From positions 113,356,723 to 113,420,722 of the forward strand of contig CP136063.1 in the NCBI GenBank assembly GCA_032622095.1: a stretch of 64,000 nt of DNA. Reading direction: 5' to 3'. This DNA comes from Siphonodentalium dalli. Its lineage: Eukaryota > Mollusca > Scaphopoda > Gadilida > Siphonodentaliidae. A program made the translations under genes and the position numbers. Position 1 is the first letter of the stretch, and every line of letters begins with the position of its first letter. A model generated the notes under the pieces. That model did not search any database and had not been told where the DNA came from. It saw only the letters and a program-made list of their open reading frames with translations. Positions 24,914 to 62,974 of this stretch are shown piece after piece.

Positions 24914-25160
24914 GGGAGCATGTCAAAACCTCTTTCGCATATGCGAAAATATTGTCGATAATGTCGAAAAAGTTTTGACGTAATTGACGTAAATGTGCAA
25001 AAACGAAATGTCGGAAATGACGAAAAATAATGCGATAACGTCGAAAGCGACTGGCCATAAAAGTGCGATAACGTCGAAACCACAACAGACCAAAATTTCC
25101 GTAAAATGTCGAAACTTTCGACAACGCGAAAGTCGCGACGTCGAAACATTGATCGATATT
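24914..25160. repeat. Left end of the Harbinger-like element: TIR and subterminal motif cluster
   Basis: TIR 24914-24948, then dense CGAAA-type motifs to about 25150. The 16-mer TGCGATAACGTCGAAA occurs at 25031-25046 and again at 25064-25079, 33 bp apart. Apparent minus-strand reading frames here are translations of these repeats, not genes. Confidence 0.7.
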
Positions 25161-26930
25161 CGCAAACGATGAAAAGTTAAAACATCCATACGATGTTGTC
25201 GCACTTTATAAATCCGCGCATTTATTTTTGACTTCTGCGTAATCAGATGCCAGCTGAATTTTTATTGGCTGTCAGCCAAAGGCCATACAAACAACTCTAT
25301 GCGTTTAACACACAAGTACAATGACTTGACAGTTCGACTGTTTTGATAGCTATGAGTTCGCACAAGGCCTAATTAAACAATAGTCAACCCATTCCAAATG
25401 TGTGAAGGGGTGACATTTAGCAAAAGGCTATACAAACATATAGGTCTACTGACATATAATGACGTATATACCGGTCCTTCACAACTATGCGTGAACTGTG
25501 CGACAGTTTTGTTGTTGTCGTGATGTCTTCTCAATTAGTGAACAATGGTTTAACTCGTTGGACAAAAACAACACATCTGATATATAAAATTCCAAAATGA
25601 AGCGACTTGATGTCATAATATCAGTTCGATCATGGCTAGAAACAGTGATGAAATCGAATAGATCTATCGGTAGCGGACATATACGCAGTTGGGAAAATAT
25701 TAGACCAGCAGTTTACACAGGTCGACAGTACGAAGAAGTTAGGGGTTTCACAACCCCAGGTATCACACATCTAACAGAAAAAAGATGAAATCACACAGAA
25801 ATTTGAAACCAGCTGCACCCACCCACAACGGGAGCGACAACGGTCCATCCACATGATCCAGCATTTGAAGCAATAGGCCCGATATAGAACAAGCCCTCAT
25901 CACATTCTGACATATATAGAGCCATACCCTCTAAGTTCATTGTTTTATAATGGTATGATATCCATATTTTTATTATTCATTCAATAAAGAATCGAGAAAA
26001 ACATAACACTCAACTCCTCTGTCAGTCAATGCTACCCACAAACGAAACTAGGACTGGCCTGGGAAATTAGTGCTAAAAATAGCACAACATAACATGATTG
26101 TGCTATTCGTGGAAATTCCAAACTATTATATAATATGTTTTGTATTAACTTAACTTTGTCGCATCTGATCGCTGATATATATTGAATAAAATGTGTAGAT
26201 TTGAAATAAAAGTATAAATGTCGCCGACGAATTAATCATGATGACGCTGCGCTTCCGATATCTAACAATGATTTCATACGTATATTGCGAAAATTAAAGC
26301 ATTGTTTACGACTGTCCGACGATGCCGTAAACACCCTGATTTGCGTCCACATTAAAATATGTGTCTGGTCTAGAAAGACAGATTGAAACTGTAGAAATTA
26401 ACTCTACGTGGCATACTATAAATCGGGGTTGTGGAATAATTTATTGTCGTCCACGGCTGTATTCTTTTATTCATAATAGTTCGCACAATTAAATGGTGAC
26501 GGTTTACCCAAAGTGAAGACAAGTTACATAATCACACACAAAAACGATTTTCGAAATCAAAATTTGCATTGTTTACGGTACCACTCTGCAGTATTAATGC
26601 GACGGTGTAGCAATTATTGCTCGAGATTTAGGGGGACTTCAACCTGTACTGTAATATGTACTGTAAACCAGTGATGCAATATCACTGCTATAAACCCACG
26701 GATTTGCGGGCACCGTGTGATATAAAAACGTAGGAATTGATTGTGTTGGCCTATCCTATTATATAAATTGGGTCTGGGAATAATTTATTTGGGACTTTAA
26801 ATAATCTTCTATTAATAATAGTTTATTATTAAACGAAGTTTGAATTGTCCGATATTAACCAAATCGGAGATTTCAGTAGATCGGAGAAATTTACTAATAG
26901 GCCTACATTTATAAACTCCGATCAAATCGG
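25161..26930. other. Interior of the Harbinger-like element, no gene recognised
   Basis: AT-rich, non-repetitive sequence. The longest plus-strand frame (25597-25788, 63 codons from an ATG) has no family signature I recognise and no conserved catalytic pattern. An AATAAA string lies near 25983. Near 26840-26945 short CCGAT/ATCGG words recur. I see no transposase remnant. Confidence 0.6.
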
Positions 26931-26987
26931 AAATGTTTTCATATCGGCGAATACTCCGATTAAATCATTGGAATTCTTATGATAAAA

Positions 26988-27191
26988 ACTCCGATCTGAG
27001 AAATTTCAGCATGGACACCGACATCTTCCCGTTCGCGACACATCAGTATAAAACTGCGACTATGGAGTATTTATTGAACACAAACTGTCACTCCGATCTG
27101 AGAAATTTCAGCATGGAGATCGACATCTTCCCGTTCGCGACACATCAGTATAAAACTGCGACCATGGAGTATTTATTGAACACAAACTGTC
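26988..27191 (+). repeat. 102-bp tandem duplication inside the Harbinger-like element
   Basis: Two adjacent copies, 26988-27089 and 27090-27191, differ at only a few bases. They lie in a frame open from 26933 to 27247, so the translation repeats a 34-residue block (core DIFPFATHQYKTATMEYLL). The period is a multiple of three, which keeps the frame open across both copies, but nothing else supports coding and no family is recognised. Confidence 0.7.
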
Positions 27192-27244
27192 CTGCCAATC
27201 ATATCGACACAGCAGCAATATTGACGGATTTAATGCTGCGATCT

Positions 27245-27510
27245 TGACGAAAACAAACACTGCGAAAATATGTCGAAACAGAACAGCGAACATTTGAGCA
27301 AAACTGCGAAACAAAACTGCGATAATTGCGAAAACATCGAACCAAGACAGCGAAAATGACGAAAAATTGACGAAAACGTACAACGTTACGGCGTGCGATA
27401 ATGACGAAAAAACTCCGATAATGTAGAAAAAACGACGTCAATGACGCCACATTTTTCGCACTTTTTTCGCATTTCTTTCGCATATGCGAAAGAGGTTTTG
27501 ACATGCTCCC
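27245..27510. repeat. Right end of the Harbinger-like element: subterminal motif cluster and TIR
   Basis: About ten GCGAAA/ACGAAA/TCGAAA-type motifs precede the TIR (27476-27510). Beyond the 35-bp TIR the two ends no longer align base for base, but the same motif vocabulary persists, arguing for shared binding sites and not for a longer TIR. Confidence 0.7.
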
Positions 27511-53064: not shown

Positions 53065-53887
53065 TGGTATGTGTGTCATTGACATGCTCATGTAATGGGT
53101 AATTTGCATTATCATGTGACAATTACCACCTTGAATTTTTTTGAAAATACCTTGAAAAATTGGCATTTTTTATGAAAAATCATACCATTTTTTTGGCCGA
53201 TGGAAGTGAAAGAAGACATCAGCAGCAAGAATAGCCACACCATGCATGGGAGATTCATTGGACTGAAAGACCAGGCTGTGAAAAATGCATTAAAATACTT
53301 TAAAGTGACTCCCAGGAATCAAAAATGCCAAAAAGTTCATTTTTCCCTTAAAGCGATAGCCCGCTTTTTCGCGGAATAATTGTAACACCCTACATTTTTT
53401 CAGAATTGCCCATGAATGAAAAAAATGTGTTCAAAAATAATATCACTTCTGTGGTTCTTTATTTATCACACACAATTTAACCCCACTCTCTGTAACACAT
53501 TATTCATCAAAAAAGCACATTTTTCCACCACAAGTCATATTCAGGCCCCATTTTCACACAGTTTTTGGGGTCTGGTGTTGCAAACTTGGATCAGCTATGG
53601 AAGACTGTACAAGATCCTTTCCATGAGAGAACTTCTGGTGATGTGAGGTCATTGAGTCCAGATCTGATCAGCTGAGCATCAAGCACATGACTTTATCAGC
53701 ACATGGAAGACTAAAATATGACATTTTCAGGTCTGCAAGGGTGATCCAAGATAACTGGATGTGGGTGTATATTGAATTAGTTGAACAAAGATATGCTCTC
53801 TTTGAAATGCTGAAGCATTTTCTTAAATGTGTCCAAGTTTTAGTGCTATTAACCTTCAAATGGCCATACCCACCAGTGAAAATGAGA

Positions 53888-53896
53888 CACTTTTAT
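53888..53896 (+). other. Left 9-bp target-site duplication CACTTTTAT
   Basis: Matches 61546-61554 base for base, and the single occurrence at this offset in every uninterrupted unit. It lies three bases before an ATATA-TCTG-TATAT inverted repeat of the satellite. Confidence 0.93.
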
Positions 53897-53943
53897 AGCA
53901 GCGTGAATTTAGTTACTTATTCCTTATTCCTTATTCCTTATTC
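53897..53943 (+). repeat. Left 47-bp TIR with CTTATTC heptamers
   Basis: 19 bp beginning AGCAGCGTG, then CTTATTC four times (53916-53943). Mirrors 61499-61545 with a single A/C mismatch. Confidence 0.9.
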
Positions 53944-54901
53944 AAAAATTTGGGAAAATGTGGCAAATGACCATGGCAACGTCTTAAGTAGGGCGAGACA
54001 AAACTTCCTGTGAAAAAAAAGTTCCAAAATGCACGAAATTAGGCAAAGTCCGAAAATGAACGGAAATTGGCCGAAACAAGTGCGGGGTCATAAATGGCCA
54101 CCTCGGCCAAAAATTTTGGGCCGAAAAATATTTGGGTCGAGTCCGAAAAAGTGGGTCGAATCCCAGTTTTCGCTCTGCTCGGTCGGGAAAATTTCGGAAA
54201 ATGTGGCAAACTGTCACATATTAAAAAATGGCCACCTGGGCCGAACTTTTTGGGCCGGAAAGTTTTTGGGTCGAGTCCCAAAAAGTGGGTCAAATAGAAA
54301 TTCCCGCTCTGCTCGGTCAGGAAAATTTGGGGAAATGTGGCAAATGACCATGGCAACGTCTTAAGTAGGACGAGACAAAACTTCCTATGAAATTTTTTTT
54401 TCGAAAAAAAGTTCCAAAATGCACGAAATTAGGCAAAGTCCGAAAATGAACGGAAATTGGCCGAAACAAGTGCGGGGTCATAAATGGCCACCTCGGCCAA
54501 AAATTTTGGGCCGTAAAAAGTTTGGGTCGAGTCCGAAAAAGTCTGTCGAATCCCAGTTTTCGCTCTGCTCGATCGGGAAAATTTCGGAAAATGTGGCAAA
54601 CTGTCACATATTAAAAAATGGCCACCTGGGCCGAACTTTTTGGGCCGAATAGTTTTTGGGTCGAGTCCCAAAAAGTGGGTCAAATAGAAATTCCCGCTCT
54701 GCTCGGTCAGGAAAATTTGGGGAAATGTGGCAAATGACCATGGCAACGTCTTAAGTAGGTCGAGAAAAAAATTCCTGTAAAAAAAAATTCTGGAAAAAAG
54801 TTCAAAAATGCCTCGAAAATTGGCAAAGTCTGAAAATGAACGGAAATTGGCCGAAACAAGTGGTGGGTCATTAATGGACACCTCGGCCAAAAATTTTGGG
54901 T
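53944..54901 (-). repeat. Left inverted arm: about 2.5 subrepeats
   Basis: Copies start near 53944, 54322 and 54712; landmark CCATGG at 53971, 54348 and 54738 gives periods of 377 and 390 bp. Each full copy contains two related halves, each opening with the CGACCGAGCAGAGCG motif (seen here in reverse complement) and running through GACCCACTTTT, CTCGACCCAAA and GGTGGCCATTT. The third copy is cut at 54901, where core sequence begins. The open frames on both strands are by-products of low-stop repeat DNA. Confidence 0.88.
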
Positions 54902-55096
54902 CTTGAGTAAAGACTCGACTTTAGGCAGCAGGTACTTCTGAAACACATCAGGAAACTCAGCTTGAAAAGCGCCCGCGGATAGGTATGTCTGTATCTGGAT
55001 ATTGGAACGTGTTAGCTCTAAGTCAACTTTGGAGTCGAATACTCCACCAGTCCTGTACTTAGCCTCGCTAATAAAGCCGAACGCCTTATTCGTCAT
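54902..55096 (-). pseudogene. Unrecognised gene fragment cut by the left arm
   Basis: A minus-strand frame opens at an ATG (55096-55094) and stays open across the arm boundary at 54901, where its amino-acid character changes abruptly to arm-repeat translation. The genuine part is about 65 residues with balanced composition, containing e.g. AFGFISEAKYRTGGVFD near the start and FPDVFQKYLLPKVESLLK near the break. It is divergent from the integrase, with an 86-bp AT-rich gap between them. I do not recognise the family. A virion or accessory protein of a Polinton-like ancestor is conceivable but unsupported. Its 3' portion is missing. Confidence 0.5.
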
Positions 55097-55182
55097 TATT
55101 ATATTGTATACGTGTATACATATAATAGTAGCTTAGCTATAGGTATGTTCATAACACTCACAAATGTCCAAAAGGCGAGGCG
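55097..55182. promoter_or_regulatory. Divergent AT-rich intergenic gap
   Basis: Between the minus-strand fragment and the plus-strand integrase. It contains TATATTGTATACGTGTATAC, with two GTATAC palindromes, offering TATA-like strings on both strands. Position suggests a former bidirectional promoter; nothing shows activity. Confidence 0.3.
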
Positions 55183-56247
55183 GTGGAACTCCTCCAATGC
55201 ATTGACAAGGTATATAATGACAACCGCGGTGGGGATCTACGAGTTGGCCTCCGCTCAATCACTTATACAGTTGGATGGTACAACATAAACAATCTACTAC
55301 AGCCCGAGGGTTACTGGAAGGGGCTTGCAGCAATCAAGAACCTCGCGGCAGCAGCCAATGTTTCTGAAGATGTGGCACGGGCGTGGCACAAGAAGCAGGC
55401 CATCTGGCAGATATACCTACCCAATCAACTTGTGCCAAGGCCCAAGTTTGACGAGCCAGTGCCAAATGAAGTCCACCAGACCGACCTGCTTTTTCTGCCT
55501 CATGACCGGGTGGGTCGCAAGACATACAAGTTCGCACTCACCGTCGTCGACGTGGCCTCTCGATACAAATAAGCCGAGCCCCTCGCCACAAAAGAAGCCA
55601 CAAAGGTCGCGGATGCCATTGAACGGATCTACAGTCGAGGCCCTCTTAGATGGCCGAAATTGCGCCAGGTAGACCCGGGGCTCGAGTTCATGGGTGCTGT
55701 GAGCCTCCTGCTAAGCAAGCACAGCGTTCAGGTGACGTGTGGATGTCCAACGACACCAGGGGGTCGTGGAGTGCTTCAACCGGATCCTGGCAGAGCGATT
55801 GTTTGTGCACCAATACGCCCAGGAGATGAAGCTTCCCGCCGGCCAAAGGTCGACTGAATGGGTGTTTCGACTGCCCGCTGTTGTATCGGATCTGAACAAT
55901 GAAATGACTCGTCTGACCGAAAAATGCACTCTGATGCCATCAAGATCAAGTCAGTGAAAACAAAACACATATTCTGCTGTTCCAGGTCGCCCAATGGGGC
56001 CCAAAAAGCAAAAGCACCCCTCGCGAGTGGGCGTTCGTTACATCTACCAGCTTGGCGAGCTGGAAGGGGGCCGCCGACGCACAACTGACCCTGTGTGGTC
56101 CCTACATGTGTACCAGCTTGAACGCTTATCACCAAGCCCGACGAGCCTGTGCTATATTTAGTGGATGGGCCAGCGCGCGGATTTGTCCGGAAAGTGTTGC
56201 TTGTGGTGCCCCCCGACACCCAGCTGCCACCAACTAGTTCCGTATGA
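55183..56247 (+). pseudogene. Retroviral-type DDE integrase relic (Maverick/Polinton-like)
   Basis: Catalyses strand transfer of element ends in the parent family. The frame is open from 55132, but no in-frame ATG precedes the conserved part; the nearest ATG (55164) is in another frame. The core begins around NEVHQTDLLFLPHD, giving a first catalytic Asp at residue 101 (counting from 55183). A stop at 55570-55572 follows VVDVASRYK. The same frame then continues through QVDPGLEF (second Asp, 55672-55674; about 63 residues after the first). A frameshift near 55750 precedes GVVECFNRILAERLF with the Glu codon at 55769-55771, a D-D-about-33-E spacing typical of rve-fold integrases. A basic C-terminal module (GVRYIYQLGELEGGRRR, about 56029-56080) is separated by further shifts and ends at TGA 56245-56247, 20 bp from the convergent polymerase-helicase relic. 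All three catalytic residues survive, but the gene cannot make one protein. Confidence 0.82.
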
Positions 56248-56267
56248 ACTGCTAGAAGGACTAGACA

Positions 56268-57649
56268 CTAGGTGTCTCGTTCCATGAACAATGCTGCAGC
56301 CCCTCTTTTTCGGTTGCACTCTAGACAGGTCAGCCTCACATCTTTCTGCAGTGCCCTTTGTTGTTGTCCAGCCAGTCGATACTAAATTGCTGTGTGTCTT
56401 TGGGTTGGAAGGCCCAGAGCAACCCAATCTCGCACGCCATGCAGCGGTTCTGTTTGGGCCTCACGGAGCTCGAGGATATAGTCGACCTTGAGATTGAATC
56501 CCTGGCGTCCATTAGCCTGGTCCTGGCGCTTGTATGCCACAAGCTTCCTTTGTATTTCCTTGCAGGCCTGGCATCGGAACCCTCTTCCGGTGGACAGGTT
56601 ACCCGTTCGAGCTGTTGAAAATACTGCACGCGGGATACGGCTAAGTAGCACATATTGGAACACTGGAAGTAGTCGTCGATGATCCAGACATTCTGAGGGC
56701 CGTGGACCGTAAGTCTCTGACTCGAGTGGACGGTGAAAGCATAGCCCAGGCGCCAATCATCGGTTTTAATAGCACACTCGGCGGCCTCGATATAGACCGC
56801 AACGACGTCATTGAGAACAAACTCTTCTCTGTGCGACGGGTCGCCAGTACCTGGGATTGTGACGTCAATGTCCTGCTTTCGGCTGTCCTTGGGTGGTAAA
56901 GGATAGACACTGGGTTATCTAGGAAATGCTCCTTATGGCGTCGGAGCAACAGCTCATGTGTCTGGTCACGGATCTTCTGGTGGCTGGTGATGATTAGGTC
57001 ACCGGACCTCCACTGCTCCACAAATCGGTCACCCCAGTCAGCTGGGGAGAGCCTTCCGCATTTCCTGGCATTGGACTTTGTCACTATGAAGGCGTATACG
57101 CCTTTTCAGGACTTTGAGGGCTTCATTTTTTGCTCTGTAGTCGACGCCAACCTCTGCCTTTTTTGCAACCAATGGCGAGGTATTTCACCTGCAATCGGTG
57201 GCGGCTGTCGTTGATCCCCGCAGAAAATTACATGGACGCCATGTTGGTCAAGTCAGTTTGAGAAAATCTCCAGGATAGGCCGGGGCACAGTGCAGACCTC
57301 GTCCCAGATGATGGCGCGCGTGATGAACTTCTGCCCCATGCGGTCGGGCATCCAGTCATTCTGACCACTCCATCGGAAGAAGCTGTGGTATGTCTGTGCT
57401 TTGACCCCACGGGCCCGCATTTCTTTCGCGAGGCGATGGGTCGGGGTAAATACGGGGATCTCTTAAACGGAAGAGCTCAATCGCTCTTGTGGTCTGGCAA
57501 CTGCCCCTCCGTCATTAAGTTAGCTCAGTCGGTGCCGGGTCAGTTCGTCGTTGTAGCTGGGCGCCGTTGATTCCGCCATCGGTTTGGCTTGGCTACAGTA
57601 TTCTGGCTTGGAGAAGTACTCGGTGTGTTCCTGCGGCATGTATAACTAC
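56268..57649 (-). pseudogene. SF1 (Pif1/RecD-like) helicase with C-terminal HNH-like domain, decayed
   Basis: Downstream of the PolB relic on the same strand and probably once part of one long protein. Visible in order on the minus strand: a damaged P-loop near 57490-57540 followed by a TRAIELFR-type helix; VFTPTHRLAKEMRARG (near 57411-57455); Walker B IIWDEV (57295-57312); motif III with FCGDQRQPPP (near 57190-57230); a motif-V-like VHSSQ stretch (near 56683-56750), where the expected Gly is Arg; and motif-VI-like LAVSRV (near 56630-56660). An HNH-like zinc domain ends the gene: CMAC, SIDWLDNNKGH and CLECN (about 56300-56440). A TAG stop lies at 56270-56268. Several frameshifts and at least one internal stop break it. 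The helicase presumably aided element replication; the role of the HNH module is unknown. Confidence 0.75.
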
Positions 57650-58908
57650 TCTCCCTTGTCGTGCCACTGAGCGGCATGAACCCTGTCTCGGGCCGGTGGC
57701 CTGTGAGTTAGCTCGTAGTGACTCCTGAGACAGTTGCGGCAGTATCCCGGGAGATACTCCGCCTGTGGCACGTACGCCTAGACACCGTCAAGCTTCTGCA
57801 ACGCGGTCTTCTGGACGTAAATGCTATAAGTGGCCACCCGGACAGCCTAATCGGGTTCAAATCTTGCCAGCATAGCGAGGAGGTTGATGGCATAGGCCAA
57901 CATTGAGGCCCTCACGTGGGTGTACTGGGGCTGCGAGCCATCGTAGTATGTGAGAATGTGGCCCAAGGGACACCGTTGGGGTGCGCCAACAAGACTGCCG
58001 CTTTTACGGGTGTCGCTTACCAAGAAGTCAAGCTCTCCCTGGTCGACCACAAGCCTCCGTGTCAGTCTTTTGTCGTCGACCTTGCTGCCCTGGGTGAACT
58101 TGCCTATGATGCTGCAGCCTTGATCACGATATTCAGGGAGCCAGACCTCGGTTCGTTTCTCAAAGGTGATGATTGCATCTAGGACATTCAGGCTCTTCAG
58201 GAGACCGGACTCAACAGGAAGGCGAGCAGGGGTGCGAGGGGGGGGGAGCAGCACTGATCTGCGGAATGCCTTCCCAAACAGGCGGGGATGACGGGATGGC
58301 AGTTAGGGTCGAACTCCCATTCCTGGACCTCGGCAAAACCAGTGCCGATATCTTGAGGACGGGGGCCGTTTATTGAGACCCGGGTCATGTGGTGGCTGGG
58401 TGCCAGAATCTGTCAAAATATGGCTTGGCCTCACCATGACCTTGGAATCTGACCGGGTAGCAGGCTTTCATATCGATGCTGACGACGTCTCTTGTATCGT
58501 AGCCCATCGCATTCCAAAGGCTTCCATGCTCGACGCAGGCTTTCTGCATGTCATCTCCGAGGCTAGCCGGGGTCGGTTTCCAACCATTGTGGTCTTTGGC
58601 CATGATACTGGTTGCGTGGTTCACCCGAAGGCTCGGTCTGCGAGCGACTAATCGCCCAGAACTATGCATGCTTCCCGTATGTTTTGATGAGTCTCCCATG
58701 TCCTGTAATTGCGGCCGTCTAGCACAAACTGGTCCACATTGAGCTGTCTGTCTTGGCCCCCACAGCAGTCAGACTGCAATCGGCTCGTCCTGTATTGTCC
58801 CTCTGATTACTTGCCAGACGTCGCTTTCGTAGAAGTTGACCTCCCTGGACTGTGGGAAGTGCAGGTCCTTGGACCATGCATGGCCGTTGTGGCAGATGAG
58901 CTTTATAT
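57650..58908 (-). pseudogene. Family-B DNA polymerase relic (Polinton-type), N-terminally truncated
   Basis: The parent family copies the element's own genome. Motif A is recognisable as DVVSIDMKACYP (about 58455-58489). The frame breaks at 58385-58388 and resumes with GFAEVQEWEFDP, then shifts again into a long stretch (57847-58254) ending in SQPQYTHVRASMLAYAINLL, typical of the palm/fingers before motif C. Motif C follows after another shift as VATYSIYV: the catalytic Asp position is Tyr (codon 57828-57826). The reading begins at the right-arm boundary, leaving too little room for the 3'-5' exonuclease domain. Protein-primed PolB of the Maverick/Polinton type is the best guess, from the pairing with the integrase; the fragments alone do not prove it. 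Confidence 0.75.
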
Positions 58909-61498
58909 CTATTTTCGAGGCATTTTTGAACTTTTTTCCCCGGATTGTTTTTCACAGGAAATTATGTCTCGCCCAACTTAAGATGTTGCCATGGTCATTT
59001 GCCACATTTTCGAGGTGGCCATTTATGACCCCGCACTTGTTTCGGCCAATTTCCGTTCATTTTCGGACTTTGCCTAATTTCGTGCATTTTGGAACTTTTT
59101 TTCGAAAAAAACATTTCACAGGAAGTTTTGTCTCGTCCTACTTAAGACGTTGCCATGGTCATTTGCCACATTTGCCCAAATTTTCCTGACCGAGCAGAGC
59201 GGGAATTTCTATTTGACCCACTTTTTGGGACTCGACACAAAAACTTTCCGGCCCAAAAAGTTCGGCCCAGGTGGCCATTTTTTTATATGTGACAGTTTGC
59301 CACATTTTCCTAAATTTTCCCGACCGAGCAGAGCGAAAACTGGGATTCGACCCAAATTTTTTTTGGCCCAAAATTTTTGGCCGAGGTGGCCATTTATGAC
59401 CCCGCACTTGTTTCGGCCAATTTCCGTTCATTTTCGGACTTTGCCTAATTTCGTGCATTTTGGAACTTTAAAAAAAAAAACAAATTCACAGTAAATTTTG
59501 TCTCGACCTACTTAACACGTTGCCATAGTCATTTGCCACATTTTCCCAAATATTCCCGACCGAGCAGAGCGGGAATTTCTATTTGACCAACTTTTGGGGG
59601 CTCGACCCAAATACTTTTGGGCCCAAAAAGTTCGGGCCAGGTGGCCATTTTTTAATATGTGACAGTTTGCCACATTTTCCAAAATTTTCCCGACCGAGCA
59701 GAGCGAAAACTGGGATTCGACCCACTTTTTCGTACTCGACCCAAATGTTTTTCGACCCAAAAGTTTTGGCCGAGGTGGCCATTTATGACCCCGCACTTGT
59801 TTCGGCCAATTTCCGTTCATTTTCGGACTTTGCCTAATTTCGTGCATTTTTGAACTTTTTTTCAAAAAAACTTTTCACAGGAAATGTTGTCTCGCCCTAC
59901 TTAAGACGTTGCCATAGTCATTTGCCACATTTTCCCAAATTTTCCCGACCGAGCAGAGCGGGAATTTCTATTTGACCCACTTTTGGGAGCTCGACCCAAA
60001 AACTTTTGGGCCCAAAAAGTTCGGGCCAGGTGGCCATTTTTTAATATGTGACAGTTTGCCACATTTTCCTAAATTTTCCCGACCGAGCAGAGCGAAAACT
60101 GGGATTCGACCCACTTTTCGGACTCGACCCAATTTTTTTTCGGCCCAAAATTTTTGGCCGAGGTGGCCATTTATGACCCCGCACTTGTTTCGGCCAATTT
60201 TCGTTCATTTTCGGACTTTGCCTAATTTCGTGCATTTTTGAACTTTTTTCCAAATTTTTTTTTCACAGGAAATTTTGTCTCGCCCTACTTAACATGTTGC
60301 CATAGTCATTTGCCACATTTTCCCAAATTTTCCCGACCGAGCAGAGCGTGAATTTCTATTTGACCCACTTTTGGGGGCTCGACCCAAAAACTTTTGGGTC
60401 CAAAAAGTTCGGGCCAGGTGGCCATTTTTTAATATGTGACAGTTTGCCACATTTTCCTAAATTTTCGCGACCGAGCAGAGCGAAAACTGGGATTCGACCC
60501 ACTTTTTTGGACTCGACCCAAATTTTTTCGGCCCAAAATTTTTGGCCGAGGTGGCCATTTATGACCCCGCATTTGTTTCGGCCAATTTCCGTTCATTTTC
60601 GGACTTTGCCTAATTTCGTGCATTTTTGAACTTTTTTCAAAAAACTTTTTTAAAGGAAATTTTGTCTCGCCCTACTTAAGACGTTGCCATAGTCATTTGC
60701 CACATTTTCCCAAATTTTCCCGACCGAGCAGAGCGGGAATTTCTATTTGACCCACTTTTGGGGGCTCGACCCAAAAACTTTTGGGCCCAAAAAGTTCGGG
60801 CCAGGTGGCCTTTTTTAATATGTGACAGTTTGCCACATTTTCCTAAATTTTCCCGACCGAGCAGAGCGAAAACTGGGATTCGACCCACTTTTTCGAACTC
60901 GACCCAAATTTTTTTCGGCCCAAATTTTTTGGCCGAGGTGGCCATTTATGATCCCGCACTTGTTTCGGCCAATTTCCGTTCATTTTCGGACTTTGCGTAA
61001 TTTCGTGCATTTTTGAACTTTTTTTTCAAAAAACTTTTTCACAGGAAATGTTGTCTCGCCCTACTTAAGACGTTGCCATAGTCATTTGCCACATTTTCCC
61101 AAATTTTCCCGACCGAGCAGAGCGGGAATTTCTATTTGACACACTTTTGGGGGCTCGACCCAAAAACTTTTGGGTCCAAAAAGTTCGGGCCAGGTGGCCA
61201 TTTTTTAATATGTGACAGTTTGCCACATTTTCCTAAATTTTCCCGACCGAGCAGAGCGAAAACTGGGATTCGACCCACTTTTTAGGACTCGACCCAAATT
61301 TTTTTCGGCCCAAAATTTTTGGCCGAGGTGTCCATTTATGACCCCGCACTTGTTTCGGCCAATTTCCGTTCATTTTCGGACTTTGCCTAATTTCGTGCAT
61401 TTTTGAACTTTTTTCCAAAAAAAAATTTCACAGGAAATTTTGTCTCGCCCTACTTAACACGTTGCCATAGTCATTTGCCACATTTCCCCAAATGTTTT
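58909..61498 (+). repeat. Right inverted arm: about 7 subrepeats
   Basis: Landmark TGCCAT(A/G)G occurs at 58987, 59151, 59521, 59910, 60298, 60685, 61074 and 61463; the last five intervals are 387-389 bp. The innermost copy is internally deleted (164-bp spacing). Same subrepeat as the left arm, inverted. The innermost copies of both arms share a CCTCGAAAA variant where all others read GCACGAAAT, so the arms were once mirror images up to the core. Confidence 0.88.
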
Positions 61499-61545
61499 GA
61501 ATAAGGAATAAGGAATAAGGAATAAGTAACGAAATTCACGCTGCT
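61499..61545 (-). repeat. Right 47-bp TIR with GAATAAG heptamers
   Basis: Four GAATAAG heptamers (61499-61526), then 19 bp ending CGCTGCT, directly followed by the CACTTTTAT duplication at 61546-61554. Confidence 0.9.
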
Positions 61546-61621
61546 CACTTTTATTATATATATCTGTATATCACTGGCTATAAAATCCAAAATACTTGTT
61601 AGATTAGCTTCTTATAACAAT

Positions 61622-62974
61622 TGGTATGTGTGTCATTGACATGCTCATGTAATGGGTAATTTGCATTATCATGTGACAATTACCACCTTGAATTTTTTTG
61701 AAAATACCTTGAAAAATTGGCATTTTTTATGAAAAATCATACCATTTTTTTGGCCGATGGAAGTGAAAGAAGACATCAGCAGCAAGAATAGCCACACCAT
61801 GCATGGGAGATTCATTGGACTGAAAGACCAGGCTGTGAAAAATGCATTAAAATACTTTAAAGTGACTCCCAGGAATCAAAAATGCCAAAAAGTTCATTTT
61901 TCCCTTTAGGTTACACTGGTGTAAATGTTTTCCATAGGCCTCAGTGCTAACGTTTTAGCGTATGCTGTTGGCTATATGAACCATGGGTCCAATTTTTTTT
62001 TTTAATCTGAAAAATTGACATTTCGGGAAACTTTTTACACAAAAAAATCATATCTGTCTAGCAGGGAATTCGCCTTTAAATCTTGTGTTTTCGTAACTAG
62101 TGTCAGATCCGCATAAAAAAATACTGTCATATTTTAGACCACACCAACAAATTCAAACTTCACTACAAAGGGTTAATTCCTGTGCCAATGGCTATCTTAC
62201 CTATGGGAAATCATAGGGAAGAGGTGTGATGATTTTTTTATGCAAAAAGCACACAAGGCTATTGACCAATCAGGGCCCAGTGTCTATTTTATTCTCTCCT
62301 ATATATTCCTCCCGCATCCGCTAGAGGTCTCTCCGAGCCTTATTTACACCAGTGTAACCTAAAGCGATAGCCCGCTTTTTCGCGGAATAATTGTAACACC
62401 CTACATTTTTTCAGAATTGCCCATGAATGAAAAAAATGTGTTCAAAAATAATATCACTTCTGTGGTTCTTTATTTATCACACACAATTTAACCCCACTCT
62501 CTGTAACACATTATTCATCAAAAAAGCACATTTTTCCACCACAAGTCATATTCAGGCCCCATTTTCACACAGTTTTTGGGGTCTGGTGTTGCAAACTTGG
62601 ATCAGCTATGGAAGACTGTACAAGATCCTTTCCATGAGAGAACTTCTGGTGATGTGAGGTCATTGAGTCCAGATCTGATCAGCTGAGCATCAAGCACATG
62701 ACTTTATCAGCACATGGAAGACTAAAATATGACATTTTCAGGTCTGCAAGGGTGATCCAAGATAACTGGATGTGGGTGTATATTGAATTAGTTGAACAAA
62801 GATATGCTCTCTTTGAAATGCTGAAGCATTTTCTTAAATGTGTCCAAGTTTTAGTGCTATTAACCTTCAAATGGCCATACCCACCAGTGAAAATGAGACA
62901 CTTTTATTATATATATCTGTATATCACTGGCTATAAAATCCAAAATACTTGTTAGATTAGCTTCTTATAACAAT
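61622..62974 (+). repeat. Satellite unit U46, long form
   Basis: 1353 bp; MITE at 61909-62359. The array resumes normally after the large insertion in U45. Confidence 0.97.

Follow-up and report, generated by a model that had tools for sequence, protein, structure and literature searches.

The Tlr1 element of Tetrahymena combines an RVE (retroviral-type) integrase with a protein comprising a palm domain, a superfamily 1 (SF1) helicase and a GIY-YIG nuclease (PMC11071308, PMC12721341, PMC4028283). Similar proteins, some of which end in GIY-YIG or HNH, are found in polinton-like viruses and transpovirons, and in this palm-helicase group the first Asp of motif C is changed (PMC11071308, PMC12721341, PMC4028283, PMC3671162, PMC4642659). 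Published Tlr1-like helicases carry further N-terminal domains (TP-like, vOTU) and no exonuclease (PMC11071308). Muta1 and its relatives, which are foldback Mutator-like elements, have subterminal tandem repeats (a 12-bp subrepeat in Muta1), 8-9-bp duplications and heterogeneous interiors (PMC5225508), and in Rehavkus-1_TC the inverted termini contain tandem repeats of 164 bp, mostly five and eight in number (PMC10218199). In animal Pack-TIRs, FB4 among them, foreign DNA is acquired through template switching or gap filling. Their median size is 224 bp, and a preference for GC-rich cargo is seen in multicopy Pack-TIRs but not in single-copy ones (PMC8277862). Here, a 7649-bp element of the scaphopod Siphonodentalium dalli, at positions 53897-61545 of a 64,000-nucleotide stretch (the window; assembly GCA_032622095.1, contig CP136063.1, forward-strand positions 113,356,723 to 113,420,722), was compared with these systems. 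The preferred reading, held at a probability of about 0.68, is that the element is a non-autonomous foldback-type Pack-TIR carrying a dead slice of a Tlr1-like element.

Insertion site, ends and arms

The window is made up of a satellite array whose units are mainly ∼900 or ∼1353 bp long, and the empty target site could thus be read directly from array copies. The element lies within one array unit near the right end of the window. A scan of the window for the target site returned 46 copies, 45 of which are empty and contain a single CACTTTTAT and one of which is filled and contains two. The empty site reads GAGACACTTTTATTATATATAT and the filled site GAGACACTTTTAT, then the element, then CACTTTTATTATATATAT, with CACTTTTAT flanking the element on both sides as an exact 9-bp duplication. 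The duplications, terminal repeats and arms are arranged as follows.

53888..53896, unstranded: left 9-bp target duplication, CACTTTTAT, present once in the 45 empty copies
53897..53943, plus strand: left terminal inverted repeat, 47 bp, with an AGCAGCG end followed by TTATTCC-type heptad repeats
53897..54900, plus strand: left arm, ∼1.0 kb, ∼2.6 subrepeats of ∼390 bp by length, GC 43%
58911..61545, minus strand: right arm, ∼2.6 kb, ∼6.8 subrepeats of ∼389 bp by length, inverted, GC 43%
61499..61545, minus strand: right terminal inverted repeat, 47 bp
61546..61554, unstranded: right 9-bp target duplication, CACTTTTAT, the same 9 bp as the left copy

The left flank is identical over 500/500 bp to 41 of the 45 empty copies (three show one difference and one is very different), and the right flank over 300/300 bp to 39 of the 45 (four show one difference and two are very different); the comparison was ungapped, and the strongly differing outliers may be shifts. 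Since the flanks are identical to most empty copies, the insertion appears to be young, unless the flanks were refreshed by homogenisation of the array. Long repeats and satellite arrays are prone to misassembly, and the element could in principle be an assembly chimera of unrelated sequences. However, a precise 9-bp duplication, matching ends and flanks like those of the empty copies are unlike a misjoin, and relatives of the integrase and of the helicase-HNH region share a short contig elsewhere (below), making a chimera very improbable indeed.

The terminal 47 bp agree, in inverted orientation, at 46 of 47 bases. The 14-bp end AGCAGCGTGAATTT, allowing up to 2 mismatches, occurs just at the two element termini, a result that is weak alone given that 6 of 100 shuffles gave at least two occurrences. 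The arms are inverted relative to one another, with 92% identity over 1017 alignment columns, and each is composed of direct repeats with a spacing of mostly 370-390 bp. The ∼389-bp unit itself contains repeated stretches, one of 61 bp (85% identity) and one of 53 bp (77%), and is thus partly duplicated internally. The arms were not significantly similar to any other part of the window or to a 5112-bp relative-bearing contig described below (best E 0.53), five open reading frames (ORFs) within them had no Pfam match at E ≤ 1, and the arm and end patterns gave 0 matches in a collection of viral contigs, which is poorly suited to such elements. The duplication, the terminal repeats and the subrepeat arms had been proposed in a preliminary description of this DNA; all were borne out, and the coordinates given there for the element proved exact.

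Long inverted termini of tandem repeats are shared with the foldback and Mutator-like elements Muta1, Rehavkus-1_TC and FB4, and Muta1 and its relatives match the element also in their 8-9-bp duplication and heterogeneous interiors. Rehavkus-1_TC likewise makes a 9-bp duplication. The 9 bp observed here fall within the 8-10-bp range of PMC5225508. However, the ∼389-bp subrepeat differs from those of Muta1 (12 bp) and Rehavkus-1_TC (164 bp), the interior appears to come from a virus-like element, and no transposase gene was found. Indeed, a Pfam scan that covered 21 of 81 stop-to-stop ORFs, including five from the arms, revealed no transposase, Mutator-like or otherwise, and no capsid or packaging ATPase. 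Because no transposase was found in the shell, the element is called foldback-like and is not filed as Mutator-like. A casposon was rejected, no Cas1 having been found among the same 21 ORFs. Searches for Rfam families and tRNA genes gave 0 matches each.

Two further insertions were observed in the array. The ∼1353-bp unit differs from the ∼900-bp unit by an additional 451 bp, an insert whose ends, GGTTACACTGG/CCAGTGTAACC, are inverted and whose flanks read TTTA/TAAA; the insert is therefore an element resembling a miniature inverted-repeat transposable element that was amplified along with some of the array. The other insertion, at positions 24914-27510 of the window, is 2597 bp long. It is bounded by inverted GGGAGCATGTCAAAACCTC ends with a TTA next to each, and one array unit that does not carry it reads straight across its site.

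The interior and its two genes

Between the arms lies an interior of about 4.0 kb (54901-58910) with a GC content of 54%, the values for arms and array being 43% and 36%, respectively. It holds an integrase gene on the plus strand and a palm-helicase-HNH gene on the minus strand in convergent orientation.

55288..56232, plus strand: RVE (retroviral-type) integrase pseudogene, recognised from homologues, relatives matching Pfam PF00665
56295..58549, minus strand: pseudogene of a putative fusion of PolB-like palm, SF1 helicase and C-terminal HNH (endonuclease VII-like)
57253..57462, minus strand: SF1 helicase piece, Pfam AAA_19 with E=1.3e-4, below the curated cut-off
54902..55096, minus strand: frame of 65 codons that opens with ATG and runs into the left arm, possibly the 5' part of a third gene, no homologue found

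Of 946 candidates obtained with the first integrase piece, the stop-to-stop stretch 55132-55572, 903 are homologues at E ≤ 1; the best 120 of these are 57-82% identical to it over part of the query. The piece itself had no significant Pfam match and 0 matches by sequence in the PDB; two intact relatives that were tested both match Pfam rve (5.8e-10 and 5.7e-9), and an integrase alignment (A1) had 10 matches in the PDB, to integrase or pol polyprotein, with a best E of 2.7e-4. The relative P0010 had one weak match in a phage collection (30% identity, E 3e-4), and neither the piece nor A1 found a relative among the viral contigs. In a tree of 121 integrase rows the window piece was placed without support, and four helicase-linked integrases did not group together (3 changes, a value as low in 294 of 500 shuffles). 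Sources of the homologues include Elysia marginata and Actinostola. An RVE-type integrase of this sort is what the Tlr1/pPolB-S1H polinton-like elements carry. Several integrase, helicase and palm homologues are annotated in Candidatus Thiodiazotropha assemblies, and these matches are probably animal host DNA within symbiont bins. Between the integrase and the divergent open frame, the AT-rich and near-palindromic stretch 55100-55135 was also observed, which could possibly have been a two-way promoter of the source element.

The minus-strand gene was identified largely through its relatives. Its helicase piece, of 69 aa, scored 22.6 bits against AAA_19, for which the Pfam cut-off is 25.1 bits, and relatives match Pfam AAA_19/AAA_30 and a Dda-like PHROG (1.3e-9). 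A query spanning the helicase end and HNH returned 161 homologues among 191 candidates, and a palm query 154 among 197. Two relatives (P0324, P0337) hold the palm-side sequence, the Walker A region and the helicase in a single predicted protein, in the palm-then-helicase order of Tlr1/pPolB-S1H with the palm recognised by motifs only, and four others (P0121, P0122, P0123, P0131) hold helicase and HNH in a single protein. Because relatives join the parts pairwise in this way, the gene is read as a palm-SF1 helicase-HNH fusion. The nuclease is supported by a match of P0122 to the endonuclease VII PHROG (2.5e-16) and by Foldseek, in which rank 2 in BFVD is a named HNH endonuclease (E=3.8e-7); against the PDB, the best Foldseek match was the PacI HNH at E=0.011, with none below 0.001. 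An integrase on the plus strand, and an SF1 helicase and an HNH-like domain on the minus strand, as put forward in the preliminary description, are thus upheld, the latter two with the backing of relatives.

The palm is a different matter. Motif A, SIDMKACYP, is present in the window and in relatives, and the relatives also carry RASMLAYAHINLL and a motif-C-like ATDS, all read by eye. However, the palm had no match in Pfam, in the PDB by sequence or by Foldseek, and the PolB named in the preliminary description accordingly stands as far as these motifs go, no library or fold search having confirmed a polymerase. That the palm belongs to a polymerase thus seems plausible from its motifs. The AlphaFold models were weak (mean pLDDT 54 for the palm and 61 for helicase-HNH), only the HNH part being confident throughout. 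The helicase alignment gave 11 weak and nonsensical PDB matches (best E 0.055), the helicase piece had no match in the phage collection, and neither that piece nor the helicase-HNH (A2) and palm (A3) alignments found a relative among the viral contigs. Sources of homologues of the minus-strand gene include Elysia crispata and the mycorrhizal fungus Funneliformis geosporum; because the latter holds a palm relative (P0305) with 60% identity over 79% of the query, the palm protein family appears to occur in both animals and fungi.

According to the preliminary description, no described family combines these genes. That view was rejected, since published descriptions of Tlr1 and polinton-like viruses already contain this gene pair. 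Like Tlr1, the element has an RVE integrase and a protein with PolB-like palm, SF1 helicase and C-terminal endonuclease, HNH belongs to the two nuclease types published for the C-terminus, and the ATDS of its relatives stands at motif C without the first Asp, as published for the group. The likeness of the palm to that of Tlr1 is one of motifs, its fold having found no structural or profile confirmation. Unlike Tlr1, the element ends in foldback arms with a 9-bp duplication, its named homologues come from sea slugs, a sea anemone and an arbuscular-mycorrhizal fungus as opposed to protists, and no capsid or packaging ATPase was found in it. The cargo therefore fits the architecture of Tlr1 but is called only Tlr1-like, because no capsid or packaging gene was found in this element, a result that says nothing of intact relatives.

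Both genes are broken. A frameshift-tolerant comparison with three references indicates 1 in-frame stop and 3-4 frameshifts in the integrase, and non-overlapping alignments of the minus-strand gene to P0252 and P0151 indicate, respectively, 2 frameshifts without a stop and 4 frameshifts with 1 stop, so both are pseudogenes. The insertion seems young but the genes are decayed, which makes it most likely that they were already broken when this copy landed and that neither moved it; this would imply that the copy was moved in trans. The arms also appear to cut coding sequence, which, like the decay of the genes, had gone without mention in the preliminary description. Homology between the arms extends to the first base of the tested right-arm segment, at 58911, and motif A lies ∼140 codons from this boundary. 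Minus-strand coding probably continues upstream toward the right arm, and ∼140 codons would seem too few for the N-terminal domains that precede the palm in published Tlr1-like helicases (PMC11071308). At the other edge, the 65-codon frame had no homologue in searches that included Pfam and the viral contigs, and may not be a gene. The interior is accordingly read, from its edges, as part of a longer element that the arms have truncated.

That the interior is one slice between arms could feasibly also reflect the nested insertion of a complete Tlr1-like element into a foldback element, followed by deletion on both sides to leave the middle, and elements do often insert into elements. However, no inner terminal repeats were found among the 25 longest of 130 inverted pairs in 53400-62000, and two separate deletions, each ending at an arm, would be required. 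Nesting is regarded as improbable.

Linked homologues and a native alternative

The homologue lists for integrase, helicase-HNH and palm (the best 120 rows of each) were compared by eye, and source contigs of equal size were taken to be the same contig, which for short contigs places the genes as close neighbours and for long ones has little meaning. Integrase and helicase-HNH share contigs of at least four sizes (8280, 466608, 586501 and 1612983 bp), helicase and palm at least six (938059, 8637, 12018, 1343670, 312435 and 291014 bp), and integrase and palm at least one (384585 bp). The 8280-bp contig holds integrase P0012 and helicase-HNH P0121, and palm and helicase occur together on the 12018-bp (P0184/P0257) and 8637-bp (P0215/P0252) contigs. 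Because homologues apparently share contigs elsewhere, the gene set is probably no accident of this window.

A scan of genome contigs returned one relative among 26 candidate stretches (L001), a 5112-bp contig filed under an Oligoflexia bacterium metagenome-assembled genome and most likely host DNA in a bacterial bin. Its integrase is 80% identical to P0010 and 67% identical to the window integrase over 276 aligned codons, and is convergent with a polymerase matching DNA_pol_B_2, the Polinton type. Since a comparison of this polymerase with the palm family by hhalign revealed no similarity, members of one integrase family appear to accompany two dissimilar polymerases, one in the window and the other on L001. 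The element thus shares its integrase family with Polintons (Mavericks) by way of L001, but has another kind of polymerase, a 9-bp duplication, and no ATPase, protease or capsid gene that could be found. Neither the palm pieces nor their relatives matched DNA_pol_B_2 in Pfam. Polinton integrases make 6-bp duplications, as opposed to the 9 bp seen here against 45 empty copies, and an ordinary Polinton was rejected on duplication length and polymerase type. It had been suggested in advance that relatives with ordinary Polinton ends, alongside elements with these ends but without the genes, would indicate simple capture; an integrase relative does lie beside an ordinary Polinton-type polymerase on L001, although that contig is without element ends.

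These linked genes bear on the possibility that the arms are native to an undescribed, capsid-free animal lineage of Tlr1-like self-synthesising elements, whose own integrase would make 9-bp duplications; the present copy would then be a decayed member, mobilised by a sister that is intact. The arms enclose genes for both self-synthesis and integration, which converge as the integrase and polymerase do on L001, homologues share contigs of 8280, 12018 and 8637 bp elsewhere, and Tlr elements have long inverted repeats containing tandem repeats. However, the reading frames appear to be cut by the arms, with only ∼140 codons before motif A, both genes are dead in this copy, and RVE integrases give duplications of 6 bp in Polintons and 4-6 bp in retroviruses. 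Moreover, no second copy with these arms was seen in the scan of viral contigs (0 matches), which is a poor place to look. Such a lineage is considered unlikely. No description of a foldback-ended, capsid-free combination, or of a palm-SF1-HNH protein in molluscs, was found in the literature, a weak form of evidence of absence given the partial coverage of the sources.

Probable capture of a Tlr1-like slice and its implications

The preliminary description had offered a capture chimera or an undescribed capsid-free lineage as alternatives. Broken cargo in an apparently young insertion, the 9-bp duplication and arms of foldback and Mutator-like type lean towards capture, the native lineage being less likely; the duplication, the tandem-repeat arms and the apparently cut-off genes all fit a foldback-like element. 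On this preferred reading, a foldback-type transposon of Mutator-like foldback/Rehavkus build would have captured ∼4.0 kb of a Tlr1-like element, comprising the integrase gene and most of the PolB-like-palm/SF1-helicase/HNH gene, through template switching or the filling of a gap. The enzyme that then cut at the AGCAGCG ends would have been a DDE transposase acting in trans, most likely a Mutator-like one, and the whole 7.6 kb would have been reinserted with a 9-bp staggered cut. The tandem-repeat arms would presumably serve as transposase-binding and pairing sequences, and the captured integrase and polymerase-helicase would have had no role in the last move.

As in Pack-TIRs and Pack-MULEs, foreign sequence appears to have been captured between terminal inverted repeats, and the GC-rich interior fits the preference of published multicopy Pack-TIRs. 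Several points weigh against capture as set out here. The GC-rich preference holds for multicopy and not single-copy Pack-TIRs, and the animal median of 224 bp is far under the 4.0 kb of mobile-element genes carried here (PMC8277862). With no Mutator-like transposase found, assignment to the superfamily relies on the length of the duplication and the structure of the arms, and the transposase and capsid negatives concern the 21 of 81 ORFs scanned. The arms are 92% and not ∼100% identical, because of which the composite itself would not be brand new, and homogenisation of the array could have given the flanks a young look. Finally, the two genes fit rather snugly into the interval between the arms and converge like the integrase and polymerase of L001, an arrangement that could also be a native layout.

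If capture is correct, the element would be a foldback-type transposon bearing the replication and integration genes of a virus-like element, and would illustrate a route by which such modules may gain different ends and come under another mobilising enzyme. A native lineage with foldback ends and no capsid, if true, would be notable in its own right. Independently of capture, animal and fungal data contain, on shared contigs, both an RVE integrase family and a Tlr1-like palm-SF1-helicase-HNH protein, the palm-SF1-helicase protein having been described for protist elements, polinton-like viruses and transpovirons (PMC11071308, PMC12721341, PMC4028283, PMC3671162, PMC4642659). And because one integrase family adjoins two dissimilar polymerases, in the window and on L001, these observations point to the exchange of replication modules between elements.

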